In this document: piece after piece, positions 11,143 through 28,784 of the stretch
Numbering within the stretch: position 1 is the stretch's first letter
How the letters are laid out: each line of letters begins with the position of its first letter
Source of the DNA: Candidatus Omnitrophota bacterium
GTDB taxonomy: Bacteria; Omnitrophota; Gorgyraeia; Gorgyraeales; Gorgyraeaceae
Direction of reading: 5' to 3'
Assembly: GCA_018819285.1 (NCBI GenBank)
Contig: JAHJQM010000013.1
Coordinates: 1 to 61,807, forward strand
Length of the DNA stretch: 61,807 nucleotides
Notes under the pieces: model-generated
What the model was told of the DNA's origin: nothing
Database searches by the model: none
Seen by the model: only the letters and a program-made list of their open reading frames with translations
Position numbers and translations under genes: made by a program

Positions 11143-12354
11143 TTATAAATAAACTACATCTTCTTTATGATATAGCGATAGAAACAACAGCATGTATTCT
11201 CTAATGTGACGCGTGATTAAAAAATTATTCCTTATATGCTCTCTGCCATTTTGACCTAATTTTTCAGCGTATTCCGGATTAGTCAGAAACTGCTTGATAG
11301 CAAAACTAGCGCCGTCTATGGAATGGCACAATAAGCCGGAATATTTATGTTTTATTTGCAGCGGAATCCCTCCCACATTAGAAGCTACAACCGGTTTTGC
11401 CTTCCACAGCGCTTCAGCAACAGTTAAGCCAAATCCCTCTTTTAAAGATTTTTGCACAATCACATCCGAAGCTCGCTGCAAGGCATTAACTACTATATCA
11501 TCCTGGGGCAGCAATAAAATATGCATATCTTTATCATGTCCTGATCTCGTTTTGACTTCTTCTAAAACCTGCGCGCTTTCAGGGTCATCAGCTGCGCTGC
11601 CTCCTGCTAAGATAAGTTGGCAATCAATGTATTTCTTTACTTGTTTATACGCCTCAATAACCCCCACAGGGTCTTTTAAACGGTCAAAACGGGAGATCTG
11701 GGTAATGATCGGTTTATCCTTTTTAATGTTATATTTTCTCAATACCGAATCTATTGTTTCCTGAGGCAATTCTCTATTTTTATCGCTTAAAGGATCTATA
11801 GAAGGAGATATCAAAAACTGTCTTATAGGCAGTCTTTGTGAAAAACTGGGCGCAGAAAATACTGCACTATCATAACTGGTTATAAAATTCTTCAAAAATT
11901 TCCATACTTGCTGGTTAGGATTAGATACGTCAATATGACAACGCCAGATCCATTTATTGCTGGCTTTCTTTTTTATCAAAGCTATAGGCTGAGGGTCATG
12001 CACAAATATGATATCTCCGTGAATATCCAATGCATCTATATTTTTCTGGCTAGTTTCCAGGAATATATCAAAATCTCGCTGCGTTATTTCTTCCGATCTT
12101 CCATGCAAAGCATTATGAAATTTTTTCGTTACTTCAAAAAAATGCTCTCCGCCCCTTATAGCATCCCATCTGGTATCTACCTCTAACTCTCTCAATAAAG
12201 GAACCATGCGGCTAAGTATCTCAGCAACTCCGCCGCCTACCACTGTTGAATTAATATGCTGAATAACTTTGCCTTTAAGTTTTTCAGCCAATAGTTTTAG
12301 ATCATCTATGATAGGCTGCCCTACTATTGGTATATATTCTTCTATATTGGTCAT
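11143..12354 (-). CDS. treT: Trehalose synthase, TreT-type GT4 glycosyltransferase
   Basis: A 403-residue GT4 enzyme whose N-terminus (INSTVVGGGVAEILSRMVPLL, then WDAIRGGEHFFEVTKKFHNAL) is characteristic of TreT, which joins NDP-glucose and glucose into trehalose. The C-terminal Rossmann half has ITQISRFDRLKDP and the donor-site run EGFGLTVAEALWKAKPVVAS. It overlaps the preceding DUF5752 gene by one base (TAATG), indicating coupling. Together with OtsA and OtsB this gives two trehalose routes in one operon. The reverse (trehalose breakdown) direction is also possible for TreT. Confidence 0.9.
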   Translation of the reverse strand: MTNIEEYIPIVGQPIIDDLKLLAEKLKGKVIQHINSTVVGGGVAEILSRMVPLLRELEVDTRWDAIRGGEHFFEVTKKFHNALHGRSEEITQRDFDIFLETSQKNIDALDIHGDIIFVHDPQPIALIKKKASNKWIWRCHIDVSNPNQQVWKFLKNFITSYDSAVFSAPSFSQRLPIRQFLISPSIDPLSDKNRELPQETIDSVLRKYNIKKDKPIITQISRFDRLKDPVGVIEAYKQVKKYIDCQLILAGGSAADDPESAQVLEEVKTRSGHDKDMHILLLPQDDIVVNALQRASDVIVQKSLKEGFGLTVAEALWKAKPVVASNVGGIPLQIKHKYSGLLCHSIDGASFAIKQFLTNPEYAEKLGQNGREHIRNNFLITRHIREYMLLFLSLYHKEDVVYL

Positions 12355-13028
12355 TATTGATCTCGCAATTTCTGCTCTACTATCTTAATGATTGTTTTTC
12401 TTAGATCTTCCAAGGTATGAGTATAAGGGTCAAGCCTTGAAATTTTATCTGATGATTCTTTGTCGCCGATAGACGTTTCTATCCAATTCGAAAAATCATT
12501 TGTCTTCTTTTCCAATCTTAACCGAGATTCAAAGATATGAAAATATATGGAGTCTATGGTTATGTTTTTAACTATATCTACAAATTCTCTTAAATTATAG
12601 GCAATATAATTTGTAGGCAATATAAAACTTATTGACTTTATAAAATGAAATTCCTCTCCTTCTCCGGCAAACTTCAATTTAACTGACATATTATTTTTCA
12701 AATAATCTTCAATAGTCGCTATAATTTTATCTCTCAGCTTACGAACCGTAGAAAACTGAACCGTATCAATACTAGCCAATCTTTCTCCCAGCTCATCCTC
12801 TCCCAGCACCTTACTCACCCAATAGGCAAAATCATTAGGCGGCTCAGGAGATAAATACTGGTGTTGCTGCAAAAATCTATGTGTATGATGGTAAACACAT
12901 GACCCTGACACCTGTTTTACTGTGCTCAATAACTGGCTTAAATTTGATGCCCTAAGGCCAGTCAATTCTGATAGATGTAGCCTTGTATAGAACCTAAACG
13001 GCTCTATTACTTTGATTAATCCTGACAT
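12354..13028 (-). CDS. DUF5752 family protein
   Basis: A 224-residue protein with two similar halves, each with a PNDFAYWVSKVLG- or TNDFSNWIETSIG-like acid/aromatic motif followed by a LASIDTVQFSTVRKLR- or RLDPYTHTLEDLR-like segment. This resembles DUF5752, which I associate with trehalose-metabolism neighbourhoods; its function is not known. The start overlaps otsB by 13 bp and its stop overlaps treT by one base, so it is translated as part of the trehalose operon and may be an accessory or regulatory subunit (inference). Confidence 0.7.
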   Translation of the reverse strand: MSGLIKVIEPFRFYTRLHLSELTGLRASNLSQLLSTVKQVSGSCVYHHTHRFLQQHQYLSPEPPNDFAYWVSKVLGEDELGERLASIDTVQFSTVRKLRDKIIATIEDYLKNNMSVKLKFAGEGEEFHFIKSISFILPTNYIAYNLREFVDIVKNITIDSIYFHIFESRLRLEKKTNDFSNWIETSIGDKESSDKISRLDPYTHTLEDLRKTIIKIVEQKLRDQ

Positions 13029-13831
13029 ATATTCTCGTCTGTTTTAATTTTTAAAATCTGTTCAAGAAACTCTGATACCTCCTGAGTATTTCTCAGATAA
13101 TATTTTGCATGAGAGTTTCCTGGATTGCCTACAAACACGGTCAAGCCTTTATTCTTCAAAGCCCTGAAGGCATCTTCATCAGTTATATCATCTCCGATAT
13201 AGATAGGGACGAACGGCTTTTTACCAAGGACAAATTTTAGCCTGGCGATAAGCCATAATACAATTTTACCTTTATCCCACTCTAAAACCGGCCTTATCTC
13301 TAACACCTTTTTTCCAGGCCTTGTTTTAATTTTATTGCTTACAATATAATAAGCCAGCGCCTCATGAAAGATTGTCTTTACAAGCCATGCGTCCTTTGTG
13401 TTAACAAGCCTGTAATGAACACTTAACGTAAGGCCTTTATCTTCTATAATTACACCTCTAATTTTTGACAGTTTCTTTTTTAAAATGGTTTTGATTTTTT
13501 TGAGTACTATTATATACTTCAGGGAGATCGGGGTCTTAAATTTAACCTTTGGACCATCTATTTCTAGACCATGATTACCTGCATAAATTATTTCTTCTAA
13601 GCCTATTTTTTTCTTTATATCTTTCAAGGCCCTGCCGCTTATAATAGCCACTTTGCAATGTGGAATTTTTGATAAACCTCCAAGGATCTCAATGGTTTTT
13701 CTAGAAATAATAGCTTTATCCGGACTTTGTGCTATTGGCGTCAATGTGCCGTCATAGTCCAAAAAAAGAAAAATAAATTTATTTTTTAATAAGCTTTTTA
13801 GTTTATTCAATTGAAAAAATAAATGATTCAT
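13016..13831 (-). CDS. otsB: Trehalose-6-phosphate phosphatase
   Basis: A 271-residue HAD-superfamily phosphatase releasing trehalose from trehalose-6-phosphate. HAD motif I is LFLDYDGTLTPIAQSPDKA, with the nucleophile Asp at about 25. Motif II is in VAIISGRALKDI, and motif IV in YIGDDITDEDAFRAL. The OtsB-type cap contains YAGNHGLEIDGP and LSVHYR. It lies 19 bp downstream of the sensor-OtsA gene and supplies the second step of the same pathway. Confidence 0.95.
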   Translation of the reverse strand: MNHLFFQLNKLKSLLKNKFIFLFLDYDGTLTPIAQSPDKAIISRKTIEILGGLSKIPHCKVAIISGRALKDIKKKIGLEEIIYAGNHGLEIDGPKVKFKTPISLKYIIVLKKIKTILKKKLSKIRGVIIEDKGLTLSVHYRLVNTKDAWLVKTIFHEALAYYIVSNKIKTRPGKKVLEIRPVLEWDKGKIVLWLIARLKFVLGKKPFVPIYIGDDITDEDAFRALKNKGLTVFVGNPGNSHAKYYLRNTQEVSEFLEQILKIKTDENICQD

Positions 13832-13850: not shown

Positions 13851-16085
13851 TTATACCTTTTTTAAAGACGTAAGTTCTGTGATAAGACTCCCAGCCCATT
13901 TGTAGACATTATTTTCCAGAACAACTTTACGCATATTTTCCATGCGTTTTCTTTTCTCCTCATCCGGCATGTCTACGGTAAATTTTATTGCGTCAGCAAA
14001 TTCCTCTATCGAATAAGGGTTAATTAGCACGGCATCTGTTAATTCCCGGGCCGCTCCTGTAAACTTGCTTAAAATCAAAGCGCCGCTCGAATCCTTTTTT
14101 GAAGCAACATATTCCTTGGCTACCAGATTCATACCATCGTGTAACGAGCTCACTATACAAAAATCGGCCAACGCATAGTAAGGCCTGATTTCTTCAGAAG
14201 AAAAGTAGCGTTTTAAATAAACTATCGGTTTCCAGTCTCCATCCGAATATTTCCAGTTCTTTTTCTCAATTAGTTCGTCTATCTCTCCAATGAGTTCATG
14301 ATAACGCTTTATATGCGTGCGACTAGGCGCTGCTAATTGAAGAAATACTAATTTATTTCTATATTCCGGGTATTTCTCAAAGAACCTGTCAATTGCTAAA
14401 ATACGCTCAATAATCCCCTTGGTATAGTCAATCCTTTCAACCCCAACGCCGATTATCTTATCCTGGAGCTTAAATTCCTTCTTGATCTTATTTATTTCAT
14501 TTTCGTCAAACTGGGTGGAATTACCTGACATATATCCGCCTACACTGATCGGAAATGACCTGATAAATGTTTCCCTGTTCTTCCTTACCACGCTAAATTT
14601 TTCTGTATCCACGCGGCACTCAGTCAACCTGTTAGCAGTATCTAAGAAATTATTACAGTGATTTTGCACGTGAAATCCAATAAGATCACACCCAAACATG
14701 CCATCTAATATCTCCTGATGATAGGGACATATTGCAAAAACTTCTGGATTCGGCCAAGGGATATGCCAGAAAAGCGCTATTGTCGCATCAGGCCGTTTTT
14801 CCTTTATCATTTTAGGAAGCATGGTAAAATGGTAATCCTGGATAAACACAAAAGGATCCTTGGCTGGCAATTCTTCTAGAACATTTTCTGCAAATTTTTG
14901 GTTTACTTTTTTATACATTTGCCAGTCGGTTTCACGAAAGATAGGACGGGTATGAGTAACATGGCAAAGAGGCCACAACCCTTCATTTGAAAATCCATAG
15001 TAATACCCTTCCTCTTCTTCTTTAGTAAGCCAAACCCTTTTTAATATATAACGATTATCTTCTGTAGGAACACCTAGTTTATTTTTGGAATTTACAAAAT
15101 TTCTGTCTGTTTTAGTGCTTCCATGCGCAATCCATGTGCCGCCGCAAGCTCGTAAAATAGGATCTATAGCAGTAACGACCCCGCTTGCAGGTCTGATGCA
15201 TTTCTGGCTTCCAGTTGCTTCATCTATAATATGCATATAAGGTTCTCTGTTAGAAACAACAAAAAACGCATTTTCTCCCAATCTTGCATGTACAAGATCC
15301 TTTAGCTTGGCCTCGGTCCAGGTATCTTCTCTTTGAATACGCGCATTGGCATTATCAGATACTACTTTCCTAGCCACTCTCAGGCCTAAGGCAACTTGTT
15401 CTACCTCAGTAATAAGCTTTCCAAATTCGCCATTTTCCTTAAAAGGGCGCAATTTATCTATTTCGCCTCTCTGAAAATGTGTAAACCACTGCGTAAGCCT
15501 GCGTACAGGAAGGATAAAAATCTGTCTTTGAATCAAAAGAGTTATTATTACGATAAATAACAACAGCACGATAAGCGATGCGCTTATGCGCTTCCAAAGC
15601 TGAGTCAATATAGTAAATACATAAGATGTGTCATAGATAACCTCTATTGCGCCTATCACATCCTCATTATCATCTGTTACAGGTAAAATATAACTATATA
15701 CTGAATATTCCCTGAATTTTTCAAGAGTTCCGCGCGGAGACTTACTGGCTAATATATCGCTGAGATAAGGTTTATCCTTATCCCGCCAATCAGAAATACG
15801 CTCTGTTATCGCCAATATCTTTCCTTCTTTATCATAAATAACACAGCCTTGCGTCCTATCTCTTTTCTGAAAGCTCTCAACCAGGCGATAGGCTGCCTTT
15901 AAATCATTTTCCAAAAAAATGTGCCTTGCTGATAACTCCATGCTCTCATTTACAGCCTTTGCCTTCTTTTTCAGGTCATCTATCAGCCTTTCTTCTTCAA
16001 AACTGGCCTGTATTAATCCAAATCCGGCAAATACAGCAGTAACTAGAAAAAGTATCGGAAGTATAAATAGCAGTATTCTTTTCAT
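13851..16085 (-). CDS. otsA: Membrane sensor (Cache-like, HAMP) fused to trehalose-6-phosphate synthase
   Basis: The ATG at 16085 is preferred over the longer frame (16184): it has AGGAATAACT before it and begins with a proper signal anchor (MKRILLFILPILFLVTAVFA). The 744-residue product has TM1 (about 5-25), an extracytoplasmic sensor region (about 30-165; CVIYDKEGKILAIT, a Cache-like strand), TM2 (about 170-190), a HAMP linker (about 190-245) and a GT20 domain (about 265-740). OtsA landmarks are VVSNREPY, SGVVTAIDP, HDY-type QDYHFTMLPKMI, FWHIPWPNPE, GFHVQNHCNNF, VERIDYTKGI and SSLHDGMNLVAKEY. It joins UDP-glucose and glucose-6-phosphate. A sensor-HAMP-GT20 fusion is unusual and implies external signals steer trehalose synthesis at the membrane. 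The upstream MscS-like gene ends two bases before the start. Confidence 0.9.
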   Translation of the reverse strand: MKRILLFILPILFLVTAVFAGFGLIQASFEEERLIDDLKKKAKAVNESMELSARHIFLENDLKAAYRLVESFQKRDRTQGCVIYDKEGKILAITERISDWRDKDKPYLSDILASKSPRGTLEKFREYSVYSYILPVTDDNEDVIGAIEVIYDTSYVFTILTQLWKRISASLIVLLLFIVIITLLIQRQIFILPVRRLTQWFTHFQRGEIDKLRPFKENGEFGKLITEVEQVALGLRVARKVVSDNANARIQREDTWTEAKLKDLVHARLGENAFFVVSNREPYMHIIDEATGSQKCIRPASGVVTAIDPILRACGGTWIAHGSTKTDRNFVNSKNKLGVPTEDNRYILKRVWLTKEEEEGYYYGFSNEGLWPLCHVTHTRPIFRETDWQMYKKVNQKFAENVLEELPAKDPFVFIQDYHFTMLPKMIKEKRPDATIALFWHIPWPNPEVFAICPYHQEILDGMFGCDLIGFHVQNHCNNFLDTANRLTECRVDTEKFSVVRKNRETFIRSFPISVGGYMSGNSTQFDENEINKIKKEFKLQDKIIGVGVERIDYTKGIIERILAIDRFFEKYPEYRNKLVFLQLAAPSRTHIKRYHELIGEIDELIEKKNWKYSDGDWKPIVYLKRYFSSEEIRPYYALADFCIVSSLHDGMNLVAKEYVASKKDSSGALILSKFTGAARELTDAVLINPYSIEEFADAIKFTVDMPDEEKRKRMENMRKVVLENNVYKWAGSLITELTSLKKV

Positions 16086-16087
16086 AG

Positions 16088-16309
16088 TTATTCCTTTTTT
16101 TTCTGAATCTGTTCGTAATGTATTGTCCTGATAGGATAAGGTATGACAATATCGCCTATCTGAATTTTTGTATACTCTGCCCATTTACTAAGGCGTAAGA
16201 ATACAGTCTTTCTTATAATATATCCCAATATAAATATTATCAATAAAACTGCCAAAGGCATTATCGTGTCTACAAATAAGTTTGTTGAAATTTTAAAAAC
16301 CTGATTCAT
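16088..16309 (-). CDS. Short MscS-like membrane protein (truncated paralogue), 73 aa
   Basis: One TM helix (about 14-34) is followed by FLRLSKWAEYTKIQIGDIVI, which resembles the linker after the first helices of the full MscS gene at 25147-26205 (ILRRLRKWAEKTAATFDDFI). The pore helix TM3 and the beta domain are missing, so it cannot form a normal channel. It has a good ribosome-binding site (GGAGAGTAAAGA) and sits between two coding genes with two-base spacing to otsA, so it looks expressed rather than decaying. It could be a small partner of the sensor-OtsA or a relic. Confidence 0.6.
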   Translation of the reverse strand: MNQVFKISTNLFVDTIMPLAVLLIIFILGYIIRKTVFLRLSKWAEYTKIQIGDIVIPYPIRTIHYEQIQKKKE

Positions 16310-16327: not shown

Positions 16328-16462
16328 TCAAAAACCATTGATAGCGTGGCCTTGAAAAATTGCGAACAAAAGACATGCCATACTAAAAAGCATTAAAAGT
16401 GAAAAAATAATAAAAAGCATTCGCGCATCCTTCTCTTCCTTTAGAATCTTAAATAAACTCAT
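16328..16462 (-). CDS. Small membrane protein, 44 aa, first gene of the trehalose operon
   Basis: An ATG preceded by AGGAGTAAG opens a 44-codon frame with a charged N-terminus (MSLFKILKEEKDARM) and one hydrophobic helix (about 15-36). It is the first ORF after the promoter-proximal terminator and leads into the MscS-like fragment and sensor-OtsA. Family not recognised. The clear ribosome-binding site and operon position support it as a real gene. Confidence 0.55.
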   Translation of the reverse strand: MSLFKILKEEKDARMLFIIFSLLMLFSMACLLFAIFQGHAINGF

Positions 16463-16479: not shown

Positions 16480-16516
16480 AAAAAACCGCTATCTACCTTA
16501 ACTTACAGGATAGCGG
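16480..16516 (-). terminator. Intrinsic terminator / attenuator before the trehalose operon
   Basis: CCGCTATC (minus, 16516-16509 as its partner strand) pairs with GATAGCGG (16493-16486) over 8 bp with a 15-nt loop, followed directly by six T (16485-16480). It lies 18 bp before the start of the 44-aa gene and 170 bp after SLC12. It could end the SLC12 transcript, but a promoter-like sequence upstream (16620-16646) and the resemblance of the intervening leader to the hflK leader argue for attenuation of the trehalose operon as well. Confidence 0.7.
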
Positions 16517-16533
16517 CCTGACTACCCAAAAAA

Positions 16534-16572
16534 TCCTTTAGAAATATAAAAATATTCCTAGACCCTATTAAT
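16534..16572 (-). promoter_or_regulatory. Leader element resembling the hflK leader (candidate riboswitch aptamer)
   Basis: Read on the minus strand: TTAATAGGGTC, an 8-bp hairpin (16560-16553 with 16546-16539, 6-nt loop), AAGGA, then TTGGGTAGTCAGGCCGC running into the terminator. The hflK leader has TTAATGGGTTC, an 8-bp hairpin, AAGGC, then TTGATGGTCGGGCCGC in the same order and spacing. No known riboswitch class was recognised. Confidence 0.45.
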
Positions 16573-16685: not shown

Positions 16686-18815
16686 TTATTCAACAGCATT
16701 TTCTTGTTCGGAATCCTTTAAGAAAAGCGCTGAGGTATTGACTTTATCTGAAATCTTTCTCATCCATTGAATATCATGTTCCTTAGATATGCCAAAAATA
16801 TTAATATCAGCTAAAGGTGCCTTTAGTATCGCCTTTTCAAAAGAACCTGCAACCACAACAATCTCTGTCTCTCTTGTAAACCTCATTAATTTCTTTAATT
16901 TATAAAGATAGTTTTGCGCTTCCTGTTGTTCATTAGCATCAGCCACTACCTGAATAAGCCGGAGTTTACCTTCCCAGTTCTTTTCCAGCTGAAGCCCTAT
17001 CAAGATCGTCAAATGAATATTAGGGCTCATCTTTCTAATCCAGATATTAACTGCCTGTTTTTGTCCAAATACCGACTTTGGATGAAGCCTGAATACCATG
17101 ATTCCCAGGCCCATTGTCTGGGCCTTTATGATAAGGTCTTTTATCGCATGGTCTTTTTCCTGATCTAATCCGAGTTTAATAAACAATACATTTGGAGGCA
17201 AGCCGGATCCCACAAGGGTTTGCGTTACGATTATTGCGCCATCCAGAAATTCTGCTGAATCAACAGCCAGCGTAGAAACAAAAATGCCCTCTTCTTTCAG
17301 CGAAGCAGACATAAACGCAAGCGCTTCTAAAGCTTTTTTCTTTCCAGCTATCTTGTCGCTGATATTCTTGTCTATTATAGTAAAAAAAACCGCTCTGCCA
17401 TTGGGATAAACAATATCCTTTATAAACTCAGCTACGCCCGGCCAATTGCGCCCCTCTTCTACAGGTATAATAAGATTCGGCTTCCATATTTTCGGATGAT
17501 ACGGAAGCTGCGAAGCTATCTTAGTAGCCTTTTCAGCGATAAATATAAATATTCCTTTGCGTATATCAGGCAGATTATTCCTGATATTTTTTCGTACAAG
17601 CACCACATAAATAATTATGGTCACCACTATTGCGACAAGGCTAAAAAGCTGGTTAATAAGAAACATTGCATACAAACATCCAATCCCACCTATTAAAGAT
17701 ATTACAATAGGGATCTTGAATGTAGGCCTAAAACTTATAATACCGGTAATCTTTTCGATAAAAACAGTTATGTTTAATGTCCCGTATGTAATAAGAAAAA
17801 ACATGGTTAAAATACCTGCTATGGTATTTAAAGTCCCTGCAAGAATGGTAAGTAACGCCAGTAATGCTGTCAGAAGGATTGCAGGCGTTGGCTCGCCCTT
17901 GGAGTTTATATAATCAAATTGCGAAGAAAACGGTATTATTCTTTGTTTACTCAATGCCAGAAGCGTCCTAGGGGAGGCCACGAACATACTCAGCGCAGAA
18001 GAAAGTGTAGCGCCCATAATACCTGCGATAACCAGAATTCTCCAGCGCGCCAAATCAATGATAATAGAGGTATTATTTGCCAAATCTTGAGGCGTAGCAA
18101 CAAAAGCAAACCAAAAACATACCGCAACGTATATGAAGAAGGTTACTGCGATAGCAAGAAGCGTTCCTATAGGAATATTGCGTTCTGGTTTTTTTAATTC
18201 GCCTGACATGCTTACCCCTGCCAGAATACCAGTGACCGCAGGAAAAAATATGGCAAACACTTTCCAGAAATTTATCTGGCCCACCCCGTGCCATATAGAC
18301 ACAGATTGCCCTAAACTGGTTTTTCCTAAAAAGATTGATATAAGCGAAAATACAATGATGCCTAAAATAACGTACTGAAGGCGAAATGCCAATTTTGCGC
18401 TTAAATAAGAAACAACTAAAAGTATAAACCAAGTTAATATGGAGACAAAAATAAAGCTATGCTGGGGAAAAATCAAAACCCAGCATTCTGTAAAACCTGC
18501 AATATAAAACGCTACTGAAATTGCTTGGGAAAGATAAAGGGGAATACCTATCGCACCGCCTATCTCAAGGCCAAGCGACTTAGAAATTATAGAATACGCC
18601 CCTCCGGCACCTATCCTAATATTAGTCGTAATGCTTGCGATAGAAAGCCCTGTGCATAAAGTAATAAGATTACTTATCACTATAATGGCAAGCGCCCCTG
18701 CCAAACCAACCTGGCCAACAACCCACCCCAGGCGTAAATACATCACTACGCCCAGTATGCTTAAAACCGTAGGGGTAAATACTCCTTCAAAAGTCCCAAA
18801 CCTTTTTGTCTCCAT
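16686..18815 (-). CDS. SLC12-type cation-chloride cotransporter (APC superfamily)
   Basis: A 709-residue membrane protein with about 12 TM helices (residues 10-440) and a long cytoplasmic C-terminal domain. The N-terminus (GTFEGVFTPTVLSILGVVMYLRLGWVVGQVG, then GAGGAYSIISKSLG) matches bacterial relatives of the animal Na-K-Cl and K-Cl cotransporters; the first unwound helix carries the ion site. The C-terminal part (about 440-700) resembles the SLC12 regulatory domain. The start lies close behind pyruvate kinase (8 bp). Because trehalose genes follow and an MscS channel is upstream, a role in salt and volume balance is plausible; the transported ions cannot be read from the sequence. Confidence 0.85.
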   Translation of the reverse strand: METKRFGTFEGVFTPTVLSILGVVMYLRLGWVVGQVGLAGALAIIVISNLITLCTGLSIASITTNIRIGAGGAYSIISKSLGLEIGGAIGIPLYLSQAISVAFYIAGFTECWVLIFPQHSFIFVSILTWFILLVVSYLSAKLAFRLQYVILGIIVFSLISIFLGKTSLGQSVSIWHGVGQINFWKVFAIFFPAVTGILAGVSMSGELKKPERNIPIGTLLAIAVTFFIYVAVCFWFAFVATPQDLANNTSIIIDLARWRILVIAGIMGATLSSALSMFVASPRTLLALSKQRIIPFSSQFDYINSKGEPTPAILLTALLALLTILAGTLNTIAGILTMFFLITYGTLNITVFIEKITGIISFRPTFKIPIVISLIGGIGCLYAMFLINQLFSLVAIVVTIIIYVVLVRKNIRNNLPDIRKGIFIFIAEKATKIASQLPYHPKIWKPNLIIPVEEGRNWPGVAEFIKDIVYPNGRAVFFTIIDKNISDKIAGKKKALEALAFMSASLKEEGIFVSTLAVDSAEFLDGAIIVTQTLVGSGLPPNVLFIKLGLDQEKDHAIKDLIIKAQTMGLGIMVFRLHPKSVFGQKQAVNIWIRKMSPNIHLTILIGLQLEKNWEGKLRLIQVVADANEQQEAQNYLYKLKKLMRFTRETEIVVVAGSFEKAILKAPLADINIFGISKEHDIQWMRKISDKVNTSALFLKDSEQENAVE

Positions 18816-25146: not shown

Positions 25147-26205
25147 TTATGTAGAAGCTTTAGTTATATATAGCGTCTGAGTAGGATAAGCGAATTCTAT
25201 GCCATCTGTTTCAAATCTCTCTTTTATGGCAAAATTGATATCCTGCTGAATATCCATATATTTGTTGTAGTCACTTCCTGTCACATAGTATACGATTTCA
25301 AAAATTAGGGCAAAATCTCCATAGGAAAAAAAATGCGCCCGGTCAAAAACAGTATCTTTAACATTTTTGATAATATCCTTGATTATTCCTGGAATAGCCT
25401 TTGCCTTTTCTGATGTAGTCTGATAAGTAACCCCTAATTTGAATACAACCCTTCTCTGCTCCATTCTTTTATAGTTGCGGACTCTGGAATTCGTAAGATC
25501 TGTATTAGAAAATATCAGCTGTTCTCCGCTAAGGCTTCGTATGCGAGTGGTTTTTATCCCAATATGTTCAATGGTCCCCAGATAATCTCCAGTTATAATA
25601 AAGTCCCCGATCTCAAACGGGCGGTCAAATAATATGGAAAAATAACTGAATACATCTCCCAAAACTGCCTGAGCCGCCAAAGCTACTGCTACGCCTCCGA
25701 TTCCTAAACCAGCGATAACCGCTGATATCTTGAATCCAAGATTATCCAGAAAAAAGACAATCGCCAATCCCCAGATAACTACCTTTACTATTACCAGGAT
25801 CCCGTCTATACTGCGTTTTAAGGCTTCGTTTTTTTCTTTTTTAGACAGATAAACTTCAAATCCATAGCTTATCAAAGCTATGCCAAAACGCACGGCTGCT
25901 AAAGTCAAGATACTTGTAGCTACAATATTGATGATCTTTCTGAGCAAAGGGTCTAAAGTTAATACATTCATGCCCAGATAAAAAACTCCAAAATAAGCTA
26001 ATGGAACTCCTATCTTTTTAATTACCTCTATAATAAAATCATCAAAAGTGGCTGCTGTTTTTTCTGCCCACTTTCTTAAACGTCTGAGAATTATATACTC
26101 TATTATTTTAATACCCAAAAATCCTGCAAATAATATCAAAGCAACTATCAAATAATTTAAAATACTATTCCCAAAAAACATCAAATCTGCAAGTTGTTGT
26201 ATCAT
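25147..26205 (-). CDS. mscS: Small-conductance mechanosensitive channel
   Basis: A 352-residue MscS-family channel with extra N-terminal helices: TMs at about 12-35, 65-85, 90-115 and 130-155. The pore-lining helix is AVIAGLGIGGVAVALAAQAVLGD (about 165-187) with the usual Gly/Ala packing. The beta domain follows (RPFEIGDFIITGDYLGTIEHIGIKTTRIRS, NSRVRNYKR). It releases solutes on hypo-osmotic shock. The gene follows hflC by 80 bp. Its N-terminal region resembles the 73-aa protein at 16088-16309. Confidence 0.95.
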   Translation of the reverse strand: MIQQLADLMFFGNSILNYLIVALILFAGFLGIKIIEYIILRRLRKWAEKTAATFDDFIIEVIKKIGVPLAYFGVFYLGMNVLTLDPLLRKIINIVATSILTLAAVRFGIALISYGFEVYLSKKEKNEALKRSIDGILVIVKVVIWGLAIVFFLDNLGFKISAVIAGLGIGGVAVALAAQAVLGDVFSYFSILFDRPFEIGDFIITGDYLGTIEHIGIKTTRIRSLSGEQLIFSNTDLTNSRVRNYKRMEQRRVVFKLGVTYQTTSEKAKAIPGIIKDIIKNVKDTVFDRAHFFSYGDFALIFEIVYYVTGSDYNKYMDIQQDINFAIKERFETDGIEFAYPTQTLYITKAST

Positions 26206-26285: not shown

Positions 26286-27245
26286 TTATTCTGAAGCGTC
26301 CAAAGATTTAAGATACTTATAATAATCACTGTCTGTGGTTAAAATCACCGTGGATGTCGCATCAATAGTTTCTTTGTAGGTCTCCAATGTTTTCATGAAC
26401 GAATAAAAATCCGGGTTCTGGCTGTAAGCGCCTGCGTATATGCTGATCGCCTCGGCATCTGCCTTACCTACAATCACCTGGGCCTGACGGTATGCCTCCG
26501 AGGTAATTACCTTTAATTCCTTAGCCACCTGCCCCTCTATCTCCGCTGCCTTACCCTGCCCTTCGGAACGATATTTCTCCGCAGCACGTTTTCTTTCGGC
26601 AATCATACGATCGTAGACCTTGTTACGCACGTCTTCGACATAGTTGACTCTCTTGATGCGCATATCTATTATTTCAATGCCATACTGAGGAGCAAGGACT
26701 TTCGCCTTTTCCAAAATAAGGCCTTCCAGCATTTTTCTTCCTACTTCAATGCGTTCCAACGCCTCTTCTGTAACAATCATATCCTCGCCTTCTGAGTCAG
26801 ATTCCAGAATGCGGTTGGAATCCCGTATTGCCTCAACCAAAAGATGCCCTGTAATAACATCCCTGGTTGCAGAATTAATAATATCGTCAAGCCTGCCTTG
26901 GGCCGCCATTTCATTGCCTACAGACTGCAGAAATTTCAGGGCGTCCACAATCTTCCAGCGAGCAGTCGTATCTACCCAGATATATTTTTTATCTCTCGTA
27001 GGTATCTGGTTAGGATCGCCATCCCAATCCAACAGCCTTTTTTCAAAATAATGCGCTTCCTGAATAAATGGCTGCTTGAAATGCAAGCCTGCCAAGATAA
27101 TAGGATTGCCTACAGGCTTGCCGAATTGCGTGATAACAACCTGTTGTCCTTCGTTAATTATGTATACCACGCCGCTAGCAAAAACGGCAATCGTAATAAT
27201 TAATAATACAACTAAAATCTTGATAATTGTGTGTAATCCTTTCAT
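26286..27245 (-). CDS. hflC: HflC, SPFH/prohibitin-domain protease modulator
   Basis: A 319-residue protein with one N-terminal TM (about 8-28) and an SPFH domain (IINEGQQVVITQFGKPVG, ILAGLHFKQPF) followed by a coiled-coil arm (DRMIAERKRAAEKYRSEGQGKAAEIEGQVAKE). HflC and HflK form a large cage around FtsH in the inner membrane. Its ATG overlaps the hflK stop (TAATG). The C-terminal region has the conserved YAGAYSQNPDFYSFMKTLETY. Confidence 0.95.
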   Translation of the reverse strand: MKGLHTIIKILVVLLIITIAVFASGVVYIINEGQQVVITQFGKPVGNPIILAGLHFKQPFIQEAHYFEKRLLDWDGDPNQIPTRDKKYIWVDTTARWKIVDALKFLQSVGNEMAAQGRLDDIINSATRDVITGHLLVEAIRDSNRILESDSEGEDMIVTEEALERIEVGRKMLEGLILEKAKVLAPQYGIEIIDMRIKRVNYVEDVRNKVYDRMIAERKRAAEKYRSEGQGKAAEIEGQVAKELKVITSEAYRQAQVIVGKADAEAISIYAGAYSQNPDFYSFMKTLETYKETIDATSTVILTTDSDYYKYLKSLDASE

Positions 27246-28243
27246 TATTGCTGCCCTCCCTTCTTATTTATATCCAGCAGGGGAAGAATCGATGTCTGCT
27301 TCGAATCAATTATGTATTTCTCTTTTGCTTTAGGAAGCACATCTGCCAAAGTCTCCAGATAGATCCTCTTCTTGGTTATTTCCGGCGCTTTTTTATATTC
27401 TCCTAAAGTAGTAAGAAACCTTTCTGATTCACCCTTTGCACGGTTTATTTTATCCAAGGCATAACCTTCTGCTTCGCGGATAGTCTTTTCTGCAGTGCCC
27501 TTGGCCTTTGGCACAACCTTGTTATATGCCTCCCATGCTTGATTAATCATTTTTTCCTTTTCCTGCTTAGCTTCGTTCACTTCGTTAAAAGCCGACTTTA
27601 CAGTCTCAGGAGGATTAACATCCAATAGTTTGACCGTGATTACATGCACTCCTACATTATAAATATCGAGTATACGCTGAATCTCTTGCTGCGCCAAATC
27701 ATCAATCTCCTCTCTTTTGGTAGTAAGAACTTCATCTACCGAATAATTCCCTACAAAACGCCGCATTACCACTTCGGAAATATCACTTATATTATCTTCG
27801 GGACGACGTGTAGCAAAAAGCAATTTTACAGGATCTTTTATTTTAAACTGCACTATCCAACGCACATCCAGGATATTTAGGTCTCCTGTGAGCATCAGCG
27901 ATTGATCCCGATAATTGCTGGAGGAGTATCTTGTGTTTACTCCTGGCTCTATAGTCTTAAATCCGAATTCCTCCTTAAAAACCTTCTCAACCTTAATCGG
28001 GATCACCTTATCTACGCCGAAAGGAATTTTTACATGCAGTCCAGGCGAGCTTAATCCTATAAATTTACCGAATCTCTGGATCACGCCTACCTCATCCGGC
28101 CCAATTGAGTAAATCAAGCCTCTTAAACCTAACAGGATTAATAAAACTACGATAGCCACAGGAAGCCATTTTGAGAAATCCGATATTTTCTTTTTGCCTA
28201 CATCAATTATATCATCTGGATTAGGAACGTTCTGCCATGCCAT
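27245..28243 (-). CDS. hflK: HflK, SPFH/prohibitin-domain protease modulator
   Basis: A 332-residue partner of HflC. One TM (about 28-46), then an SPFH domain (SIGPDEVGVIQRFGKFIGLSSPGLHVKIPFG), the conserved VVMRRFVGNYSVDEVLTTKREEI, and a coiled coil (NEVNEAKQEKEKMINQAWEAYNK). The N-terminal Gly/Pro-rich tail of proteobacterial HflK is short here. The start follows AAAGGAGGATATCT. The operon has a consensus promoter and a promoter-proximal terminator. Confidence 0.95.
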   Translation of the reverse strand: MAWQNVPNPDDIIDVGKKKISDFSKWLPVAIVVLLILLGLRGLIYSIGPDEVGVIQRFGKFIGLSSPGLHVKIPFGVDKVIPIKVEKVFKEEFGFKTIEPGVNTRYSSSNYRDQSLMLTGDLNILDVRWIVQFKIKDPVKLLFATRRPEDNISDISEVVMRRFVGNYSVDEVLTTKREEIDDLAQQEIQRILDIYNVGVHVITVKLLDVNPPETVKSAFNEVNEAKQEKEKMINQAWEAYNKVVPKAKGTAEKTIREAEGYALDKINRAKGESERFLTTLGEYKKAPEITKKRIYLETLADVLPKAKEKYIIDSKQTSILPLLDINKKGGQQ

Positions 28244-28282: not shown

Positions 28283-28317
28283 AAAAAAGCCACCCTATGC
28301 CTATTGCAAATGGCGGC
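28283..28317 (-). terminator. Intrinsic terminator / attenuator in the hflK leader
   Basis: On the minus strand GCCGCC (28317-28312) pairs with GGTGGC (28294-28289; one G-U) and is followed by six T (28288-28283). It stands 40 bp before hflK and about 90 bp after its promoter, so it can only act within the leader. Confidence 0.7.
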
Positions 28318-28370
28318 CCGACCATCAATATTGCCTTCAGAAAACAAAATTATTTCTGAACCCATTAACC
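28318..28370 (-). promoter_or_regulatory. Structured hflK leader, shared pattern with the trehalose leader
   Basis: Minus strand: TTAATGGGTTC, then an 8-bp hairpin (arms 28360-28353 and 28343-28336), AAGGC, a short link, then TTGATGGTCGGGCCGC, which enters the terminator. The same order occurs at 16506-16572. Such conservation between unrelated operons is what a ligand-sensing aptamer would show. Confidence 0.45.
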
Positions 28371-28408: not shown

Positions 28409-28437
28409 ACTATAATTTGTCTTAAGCTCTCTGTCAA
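28409..28437 (-). promoter_or_regulatory. Promoter of hflK-hflC
   Basis: Perfect -35 TTGACA (28437-28432), -10 TATAGT (28414-28409), spacer 17 bp. Start point about 28402, giving a 160-nt leader. Confidence 0.75.
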
Positions 28438-28489: not shown

Positions 28490-28609
28490 AAAAAATACCC
28501 TGACTAGCATCGTTAATCAGGGTTTAATTTATCTCTCCATCTGGAATTAGAGAGATTTATGTGGCTGCGCACAGCTGTAACACTGTTAACATAATCTCTT
28601 AATTTACAG
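28490..28609 (-). ncRNA. Candidate small RNA (about 120 nt) with its own promoter and terminator
   Basis: A strong promoter (28615-28643) is followed by about 120 nt without an ORF of any length with a ribosome-binding site, ending in an intrinsic terminator: ACCCTGA/TCAGGGT stem (28523-28517 with 28503-28497) then A and six T. A second stem (ATCTCTC 28531-28537 with GAGAGAT 28550-28556) lies just before it. hflK has a separate promoter downstream. It could be a stand-alone sRNA, 6S RNA (not confirmed), or the orphan leader of a lost gene. Confidence 0.5.
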
Positions 28610-28614
28610 TCCCT

Positions 28615-28643
28615 ATTATAGTAAGAAATCCCGAGATTATCAA
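28615..28643 (-). promoter_or_regulatory. Promoter of the candidate small RNA
   Basis: TTGATA (28643-28638) and consensus TATAAT (28620-28615) on the minus strand, spacer 17 bp. Confidence 0.7.
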
Positions 28644-28784
28644 GAGAATAGACTGATTAAGAGATAATTTTATAGCTAGAATATGTCCAAAATGTCCGCT
28701 ATTTTCTGGCTATAATATCTCTAACTCTATACTATATAAAGAGATAAACAATGTCCTATATAAGAAGTTGGACATAGTTCTATA

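Follow-up and report, generated by a model that had tools for sequence, protein, structure and literature searches.

The Omnitrophota are nearly all uncultured. In the window analysed here, i.e., the whole stretch of 61,807 nt from Candidatus Omnitrophota bacterium (GCA_018819285.1, contig JAHJQM010000013.1), an earlier note had described two minus-strand leaders of one frame, ahead of a trehalose operon and of an hflK operon, as a candidate riboswitch common to two stress operons. The question is which RNA these leaders represent, what it might sense and why it precedes these genes.

Two leaders of one frame in the window

The common frame was found at both sites as the earlier note had it. 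Each leader has GGGU, then P1, a hairpin of 8 bp, then AGG, and after a short linker comes hairpin P2, whose loop is C[G/A]GGCC. Both sites had been located properly, although their limits lay a few bases off those of the aptamers (Table 1).

Genes were called with a simple ORF script and no gene finder. The first SPFH protein of the second operon is presumably HflK, as the earlier note labelled it, and the other is presumably HflC. The most likely start of the trehalose-6-phosphate synthase (TPS) frame is 16085; an ORF of 44 aa and the relic of an mscS gene separate it from the leader. Letters similar to those of the 44-aa ORF also follow the leader of another genome (G338). A promoter match was found about 45 bases ahead of the hflK aptamer, and none stood out before the trehalose aptamer in a consensus scan (best 9/12). 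Separately, an intergenic region with inverted repeats (28497-28700, minus strand), which ends in a terminator-like hairpin at 28523-28497, yielded no ORF of at least 80 aa and no Rfam match above cut-off, and may be a small RNA gene.

Table 1. Coordinates of leader elements and genes in the window
Feature	Position	Strand	Basis
TreT-like trehalose synthase glycosyltransferase	11143..12354	-	PF21269 + PF00534
DUF5752 protein	12354..13028	-	PF19027
Trehalose-phosphatase	13016..13831	-	PF02358
TPS with N-terminal transmembrane sensor/HAMP region	13851..16085	-	PF00982; WalK-like sensor fold, HAMP matches; start inferred
mscS internal-deletion relic	16109..16309	-	tblastn with intact 355-aa MscS of same-genus G168
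44-aa ORF with hydrophobic stretch, first ORF past trehalose leader	16328..16462	-	Sequence reading
Trehalose-leader intrinsic terminator, overlapping P2 3' strand and loop, U tract after	16483..16519	-	Minimum-energy fold
Trehalose-leader aptamer, nhaA-I-type	16508..16565	-	RF03057 33.2 bits, E 3.6e-5; P2 loop CAGGCC, not CGGGCC
Prokaryotic cation-chloride cotransporter, directly upstream of trehalose leader	16686-18815	-	PF00324, PF21554, PF21555
MscS-type mechanosensitive channel	25147..26205	-	PF00924 + PF21082 + PF21088
HflC-type SPFH protein	26286..27245	-	PF01145
HflK-type SPFH protein	27245..28243	-	PF01145
hflK-leader intrinsic terminator, overlapping P2 3' strand and loop, U tracts after	28287..28319	-	Minimum-energy fold
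hflK-leader aptamer, nhaA-I-type	28308..28363	-	RF03057 45.2 bits, above 37-bit cut-off
Sigma-70-like promoter, TTGACA, 17 nt, TATAGT	28409..28437	-	11/12 consensus letters; consensus match only

Assignment to the nhaA-I RNA family

Comparison with Rfam, which the earlier note had proposed, identified both leaders as relatives of the nhaA-I RNA (RF03057) and supported its riboswitch proposal. The hflK leader exceeded the family cut-off in a cmscan of the window and gave an E-value of 4.5e-8 in a 301-base search, so that its membership is near certain. The trehalose leader did not reach the cut-off. Since the syntenic leader of G168, a genome of the same genus, scored 50.9 bits as against 33.2 here, we treat the trehalose leader as a diverged relative that falls short of full membership under the Rfam rule; as such it very likely belongs to the family. 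A search at E up to 10 found two RF03057 copies in the organism's own genome and no others. When a model was built from 28 Omnitrophota aptamers, it gave the window sites 60.0 and 55.6, values that are high by construction because both were in the training set.

A new riboswitch class is thereby ruled out: the leaders belong to a known lithium/sodium-sensing family, published as Li+-I/Na+-II. In the accessible text of White et al. (2022; PMC9646797), the nhaA-I RNA is validated as the Li+-I riboswitch and its hosts are named as Alpha-, Beta-, Gamma- and Deltaproteobacteria, with terminator-bearing variants in Deltaproteobacteria only. One such variant, from Desulfobulbus propionicus, was activated by Na+ in transcription assays and defines Na+-II. 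The same text mentions tandem copies close to osmotic genes and an occasional association with TPS, for which it leaves open whether Li+ or Na+ is the signal. As far as described there, the Li+-I RNA shares with the window leaders hairpins P1 and P2, the conserved GGGU and AGG, the P2 loop CGGGCC and its place as a cis-regulatory leader.

The Na+-I riboswitch (DUF1646 motif, RF03071) was also considered; in the available portions of its description (PMC9337991) it has a similar two-hairpin architecture, a terminator platform and ion-transport/osmolyte genes. It was ruled out because its family model found no match: none in the hflK leader with E-values up to 10 allowed, none at either leader at E up to 1 and none in 97 Omnitrophota genomes. 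Seven further genomes, searched with a view to comparing the P1 base, also gave no RF03071 match.

The terminator shares the second stem

The earlier note had placed a terminator beginning within the last motif, and the minimum-energy folds confirmed this at both sites. When either leader is folded in full, the best structure keeps P1 and has the terminator in place of P2; the terminator starts in the P2 loop and uses the P2 3' strand. The fold energies lay below those of dinucleotide shuffles (z -2.2 and -2.7), with 3/200 shuffles as good in each case.

Two observations had been named beforehand as telling, i.e., compensatory changes in the stems and further matches upstream of genes, and both were made. 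In the 28-sequence alignment, both stems showed both-sided changes (13/15 pairs) and 95.3% of cells were paired; 0/500 shuffles reached this level on any of five measures, and sliding the partner by 1-3 columns lowered pairing to 38-60%. Terminators overlapping the P2 3' strand were called at 139/148 Omnitrophota sites and at 50/54 sites in Desulfobacterota, the shuffled downstream DNA giving 195/1480 and 61/540, respectively. Among the 186 terminator-bearing sites of these two phyla, U replaced C at model position 51 in 30, and in 27 of these the U finds a partner on the P2 5' strand as well as on the terminator arm; in this count the terminator partner is taken from the fold, which favours pairing, and the P2 partner is independent of it. 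Nineteen of them have changed to A on both partners of position 51. At position 53, one of 16 departures pairs with both strands. The geometry, the covariation and the published precedent strongly suggest ON switching through competition with the terminator. A terminator stem that competes with the aptamer is likewise the platform of Na+-II in D. propionicus, as given in the accessible text (PMC9646797), and this trait is present at both window leaders.

Two further features of the aptamers were recorded. At 35/148 Omnitrophota sites the aptamer starts AAG-H-GGT with a conserved upstream AAG (e.g., L039:9852-9908), which possibly marks a subtype with another property; 107/148 start GGGT. Tandem RNA pairs occur in Omnitrophota (L036:798-981, L041:901-1095), and Desulfobacterota have more tandems and one triple (G520).

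Distribution and targets in Omnitrophota

At E up to 1e-3, RF03057 was found in 98/384 sampled Omnitrophota genomes, in 96 of them above the cut-off and with 147 matches in total, and gave no match in the other 286. With the window's weaker trehalose site added, this made 148 sites, each taken with its flanking DNA, and they fall in 29 families. Genes outside the window were labelled TPS, MscS or HflK by BLAST to the window proteins, with Pfam run on cluster representatives. The first downstream gene was TPS at 43 sites, MscS at 24 and HflK at 22; a reversed ORF came first at four, and two had no following ORF on the contig. At least one of TPS, OtsB, MscS, HflK and HflC was present among the first four same-strand ORFs at 109/148 sites, the remaining 39, some of them cut by contig ends, giving no such match. 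Counted by family, the four ORFs included TPS in 26/29, MscS in 14 and HflK in 7. Thirteen of the 98 genomes, that of the window included, combine a site linked to TPS with one linked to HflK. Many related genomes thus have this switch ahead of genes of the same kinds. The earlier note had read the targets as membrane-stress functions; stress operons they are, but osmotic and sodium stress describes them better.

Cluster representatives also placed a CitMHS-type transporter, a Na+/Ca2+ exchanger and a Na+/H+ exchanger among the targets, together with response regulator, histidine kinase, peptidoglycan-binding, OmpA and P-II proteins (Pfam). A P-II-like protein of 96 aa (PF00543) is encoded by one of the first genes downstream of the RNA in a few genomes (L039, L041, L043), in some with a 423-aa protein following it. 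A gapped pattern scan of the genome contigs proved too loose, returning at least 80 loci that mostly seemed to be chance matches in G+C-rich genomes; 20 of these were scanned with model R1 and 18 with Rfam, and the genomes behind 24 were searched with RF03057. Among the papers listed by searches of open-licence PMC text, none was concerned, judging by title or abstract, with nhaA-I RNAs in Omnitrophota or with a link to HflK.

These results bear on whether the leaders are coincidental terminators of preceding genes, or else leaders that bind a protein. The cation-chloride cotransporter gene does end some 120 bases before the trehalose leader starts. Against this, the two-stem RNA is conserved in 98/384 genomes, covaries and has recurrent genes behind it, and the hflK aptamer has a good promoter match just upstream. 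Plain terminators of upstream genes are ruled out by the covariation and the recurrence, and we regard this whole group of explanations as highly improbable.

The RNA is linked to a long TPS

The window TPS is of the long form. TPS domains were collected from 184 genomes, 5/119 matches being dropped as too short and three frames of more than 1100 aa excluded. An nhaA-I RNA lay within 6 kb upstream of 32/60 long TPS (600-1100 aa) and of 2/51 short ones (<600 aa), with a Fisher p of 5e-9 that is uncorrected for relatedness. The predicted fold of the N-terminal region has a PAS-like domain flanked by a pair of long helices, followed by a HAMP-like part (mean pLDDT 80, pTM 0.58), and profile and fold searches returned the WalK extracellular sensor and HAMP domains (PAS/Cache-like fold). 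Because the long TPS is linked to the RNA and has a sensor-like N-terminus, control in two layers is suggested, and trehalose synthesis may answer to the RNA switch plus a transmembrane signal. A literature search, judged from its listings, returned no description of a sensor-fused TPS.

The trehalose leader may be decaying

Whereas the hflK leader is canonical, that of the trehalose operon has the loop CAGGCC, the sole case among the 148 sites, of which 143 have CGGGCC; paired G-to-A mutations of the loop weakened the Li+ response in the accessible text of White et al. (PMC9646797). In G168, an intact MscS of 355 aa lies between leader and TPS. With this protein as tblastn query, the window relic matched at aa 1-56, which run on in frame into the C-terminal end of the protein. 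In G155, a further genome of the genus, P2 of the leader carries one additional base, and the terminator test was negative. We conclude with moderate confidence that the trehalose-mscS switch is decaying in part of the genus.

Taken further, the trehalose leader could be the remnant of an attenuator that no longer works, with the hflK leader alone functional, which would fit the main reading for hflK. The A in a loop kept at 143/148 sites, the adjoining deletion relic of mscS, the altered leader of G155 and the RF03057 score below cut-off all point this way. P2 and the terminator arm, however, are still paired in step in the trehalose leader, so its pairing looks maintained, and we lean against a non-working remnant while treating it as a serious alternative.

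Comparison with other phyla

Four further phyla, each defined by one record and named here from its title, were searched with RF03057. Matches were found in 37/345 genomes of Desulfobacterota (Desulfovibrionaceae record), 10/337 of Verrucomicrobiota (Lentisphaerae record), 14/398 of Pseudomonadota (Pseudomonas record) and 3/99 of Planctomycetota (record of that name). In the comparison of P1, loop and terminator, one Omnitrophota site was left unparsed. The two pairs at the GGGU/AGG junction read YY/RR at 145/148 Omnitrophota and 53/54 Desulfobacterota sites, a feature that relates the Omnitrophota RNAs to the phylum of Na+-II. The first base of P1 was G at 15/15 Pseudomonadota sites examined, 14 of them from the search above and one from the genomes behind the pattern-scan loci. 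It was also G at 11/13 Verrucomicrobiota sites, and 5/5 Planctomycetota sites read GGGUG by eye. Terminators overlapping P2 were called at 1/13 Verrucomicrobiota and 2/15 Pseudomonadota sites (shuffles 4/130 and 7/150), and two Verrucomicrobiota sites had YY/RR with no terminator. The split in the P1 base goes with the platform; this is a correlation confounded with phylum, almost no sampled phylum having both types. In Pseudomonadota, the representatives of the two main target clusters were PF06965 and PF07399 antiporters. In Verrucomicrobiota, nhaA-I RNAs at L277 and L310, whose P1 base is G-C, lie upstream of octopine-dehydrogenase-like genes, which are not known to us as an nhaA-I target.

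Model position 42 was U at both window sites and at 141/148 Omnitrophota sites. The P2 register was shifted by one at nine Desulfobacterota, ten Pseudomonadota and one Omnitrophota sites, whose position 42 was left out of the count.

The candidate ligand

We consider it probable that both leaders are ON riboswitches of the nhaA-I family with a terminator platform, most likely responding to Na+ and driving an osmotic-stress regulon. When the ligand is absent, the P2 3' strand and loop would pair downstream to form the intrinsic terminator, and transcription would halt before the operon. By analogy with Na+-II the ligand is most likely Na+, and salt stress, by raising Na+ inside the cell, would switch on the hflKC-mscS operon along with trehalose synthesis. 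We infer Na+ from the gene context, the absence of NhaA and the platform. This reading is weakened by the U at position 42, where the tested Na+-II RNA has C (C54 in the accessible text of PMC9646797); by this comparison the C of the Na+-selectivity position is absent from the window sites, a result as good as the mapping of C54 to 42, which we derived from the numbering in the text. The Omnitrophota RNAs also differ from Na+-II in phylum and in having recognisable osmotic targets, as opposed to the function-unknown proteins reported in the portions available.

Alternatively, the leaders could be true Li+-I riboswitches, whose operons answer Li+ toxicity and raise trehalose synthesis because Li+ disturbs it. 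They share their Rfam family with the validated Li+-I RNAs, the U at position 42 is the Li+-I letter under the same derived mapping, and the accessible text of White et al. (PMC9646797) raises this possibility for TPS-linked members. Yet 0/97 Omnitrophota genomes gave a match to NhaA (PF06965), which Li+-I usually controls, and the targets are osmotic. As described in that text, Li+-I controls nhaA, a trait absent at both window leaders, which precede the TPS and HflK operons; its P1 base is G-first, whereas that of the Omnitrophota RNAs is YY/RR, a Y-R base that also sets them apart from the G-C of NhaA-linked Pseudomonadota RNAs; and its platform lies near the start codon, whereas here it is an intrinsic terminator. 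We therefore think it unlikely that the leaders are true Li+-I riboswitches.

The RNAs might also be broad sensors of monovalent cations (Na+, Li+, NH4+) that report general osmotic stress, an explanation to which we likewise give a low probability. It would suit the osmotic targets, and the C54U mutation, which brings the D. propionicus switch to the U of the window sites, made it responsive to Li+ and NH4+ as well as Na+ in the accessible text (PMC9646797). C54U is, however, one mutant in a different sequence background. We know of no ligand test of RNAs that combine this U with a Y-R base. A Na+-responsive switch is our preferred reading.

Implications

Across phyla, we tentatively propose, as an idea that could well prove wrong but merits attention, that nhaA-I RNAs comprise two sensors distinguished by one base pair adjacent to the pocket. 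RNAs with a G-first P1 near the translation start would guard against Li+, whereas those with a Y-R P1 and a terminator would sense Na+ and serve as a main phylum-wide osmotic-stress controller of membrane-sensor-fused TPS, MscS and HflKC. The Omnitrophota offer a phylum-wide set in which one RNA type with a base-pair signature recurs before osmotic targets and in which NhaA is absent from the 97 genomes searched. With this set and signature, the Li+/Na+ question left in the accessible text of White et al. (PMC9646797) becomes testable with a few short RNAs, and the answer on the ligand would also show how Omnitrophota sense salt.
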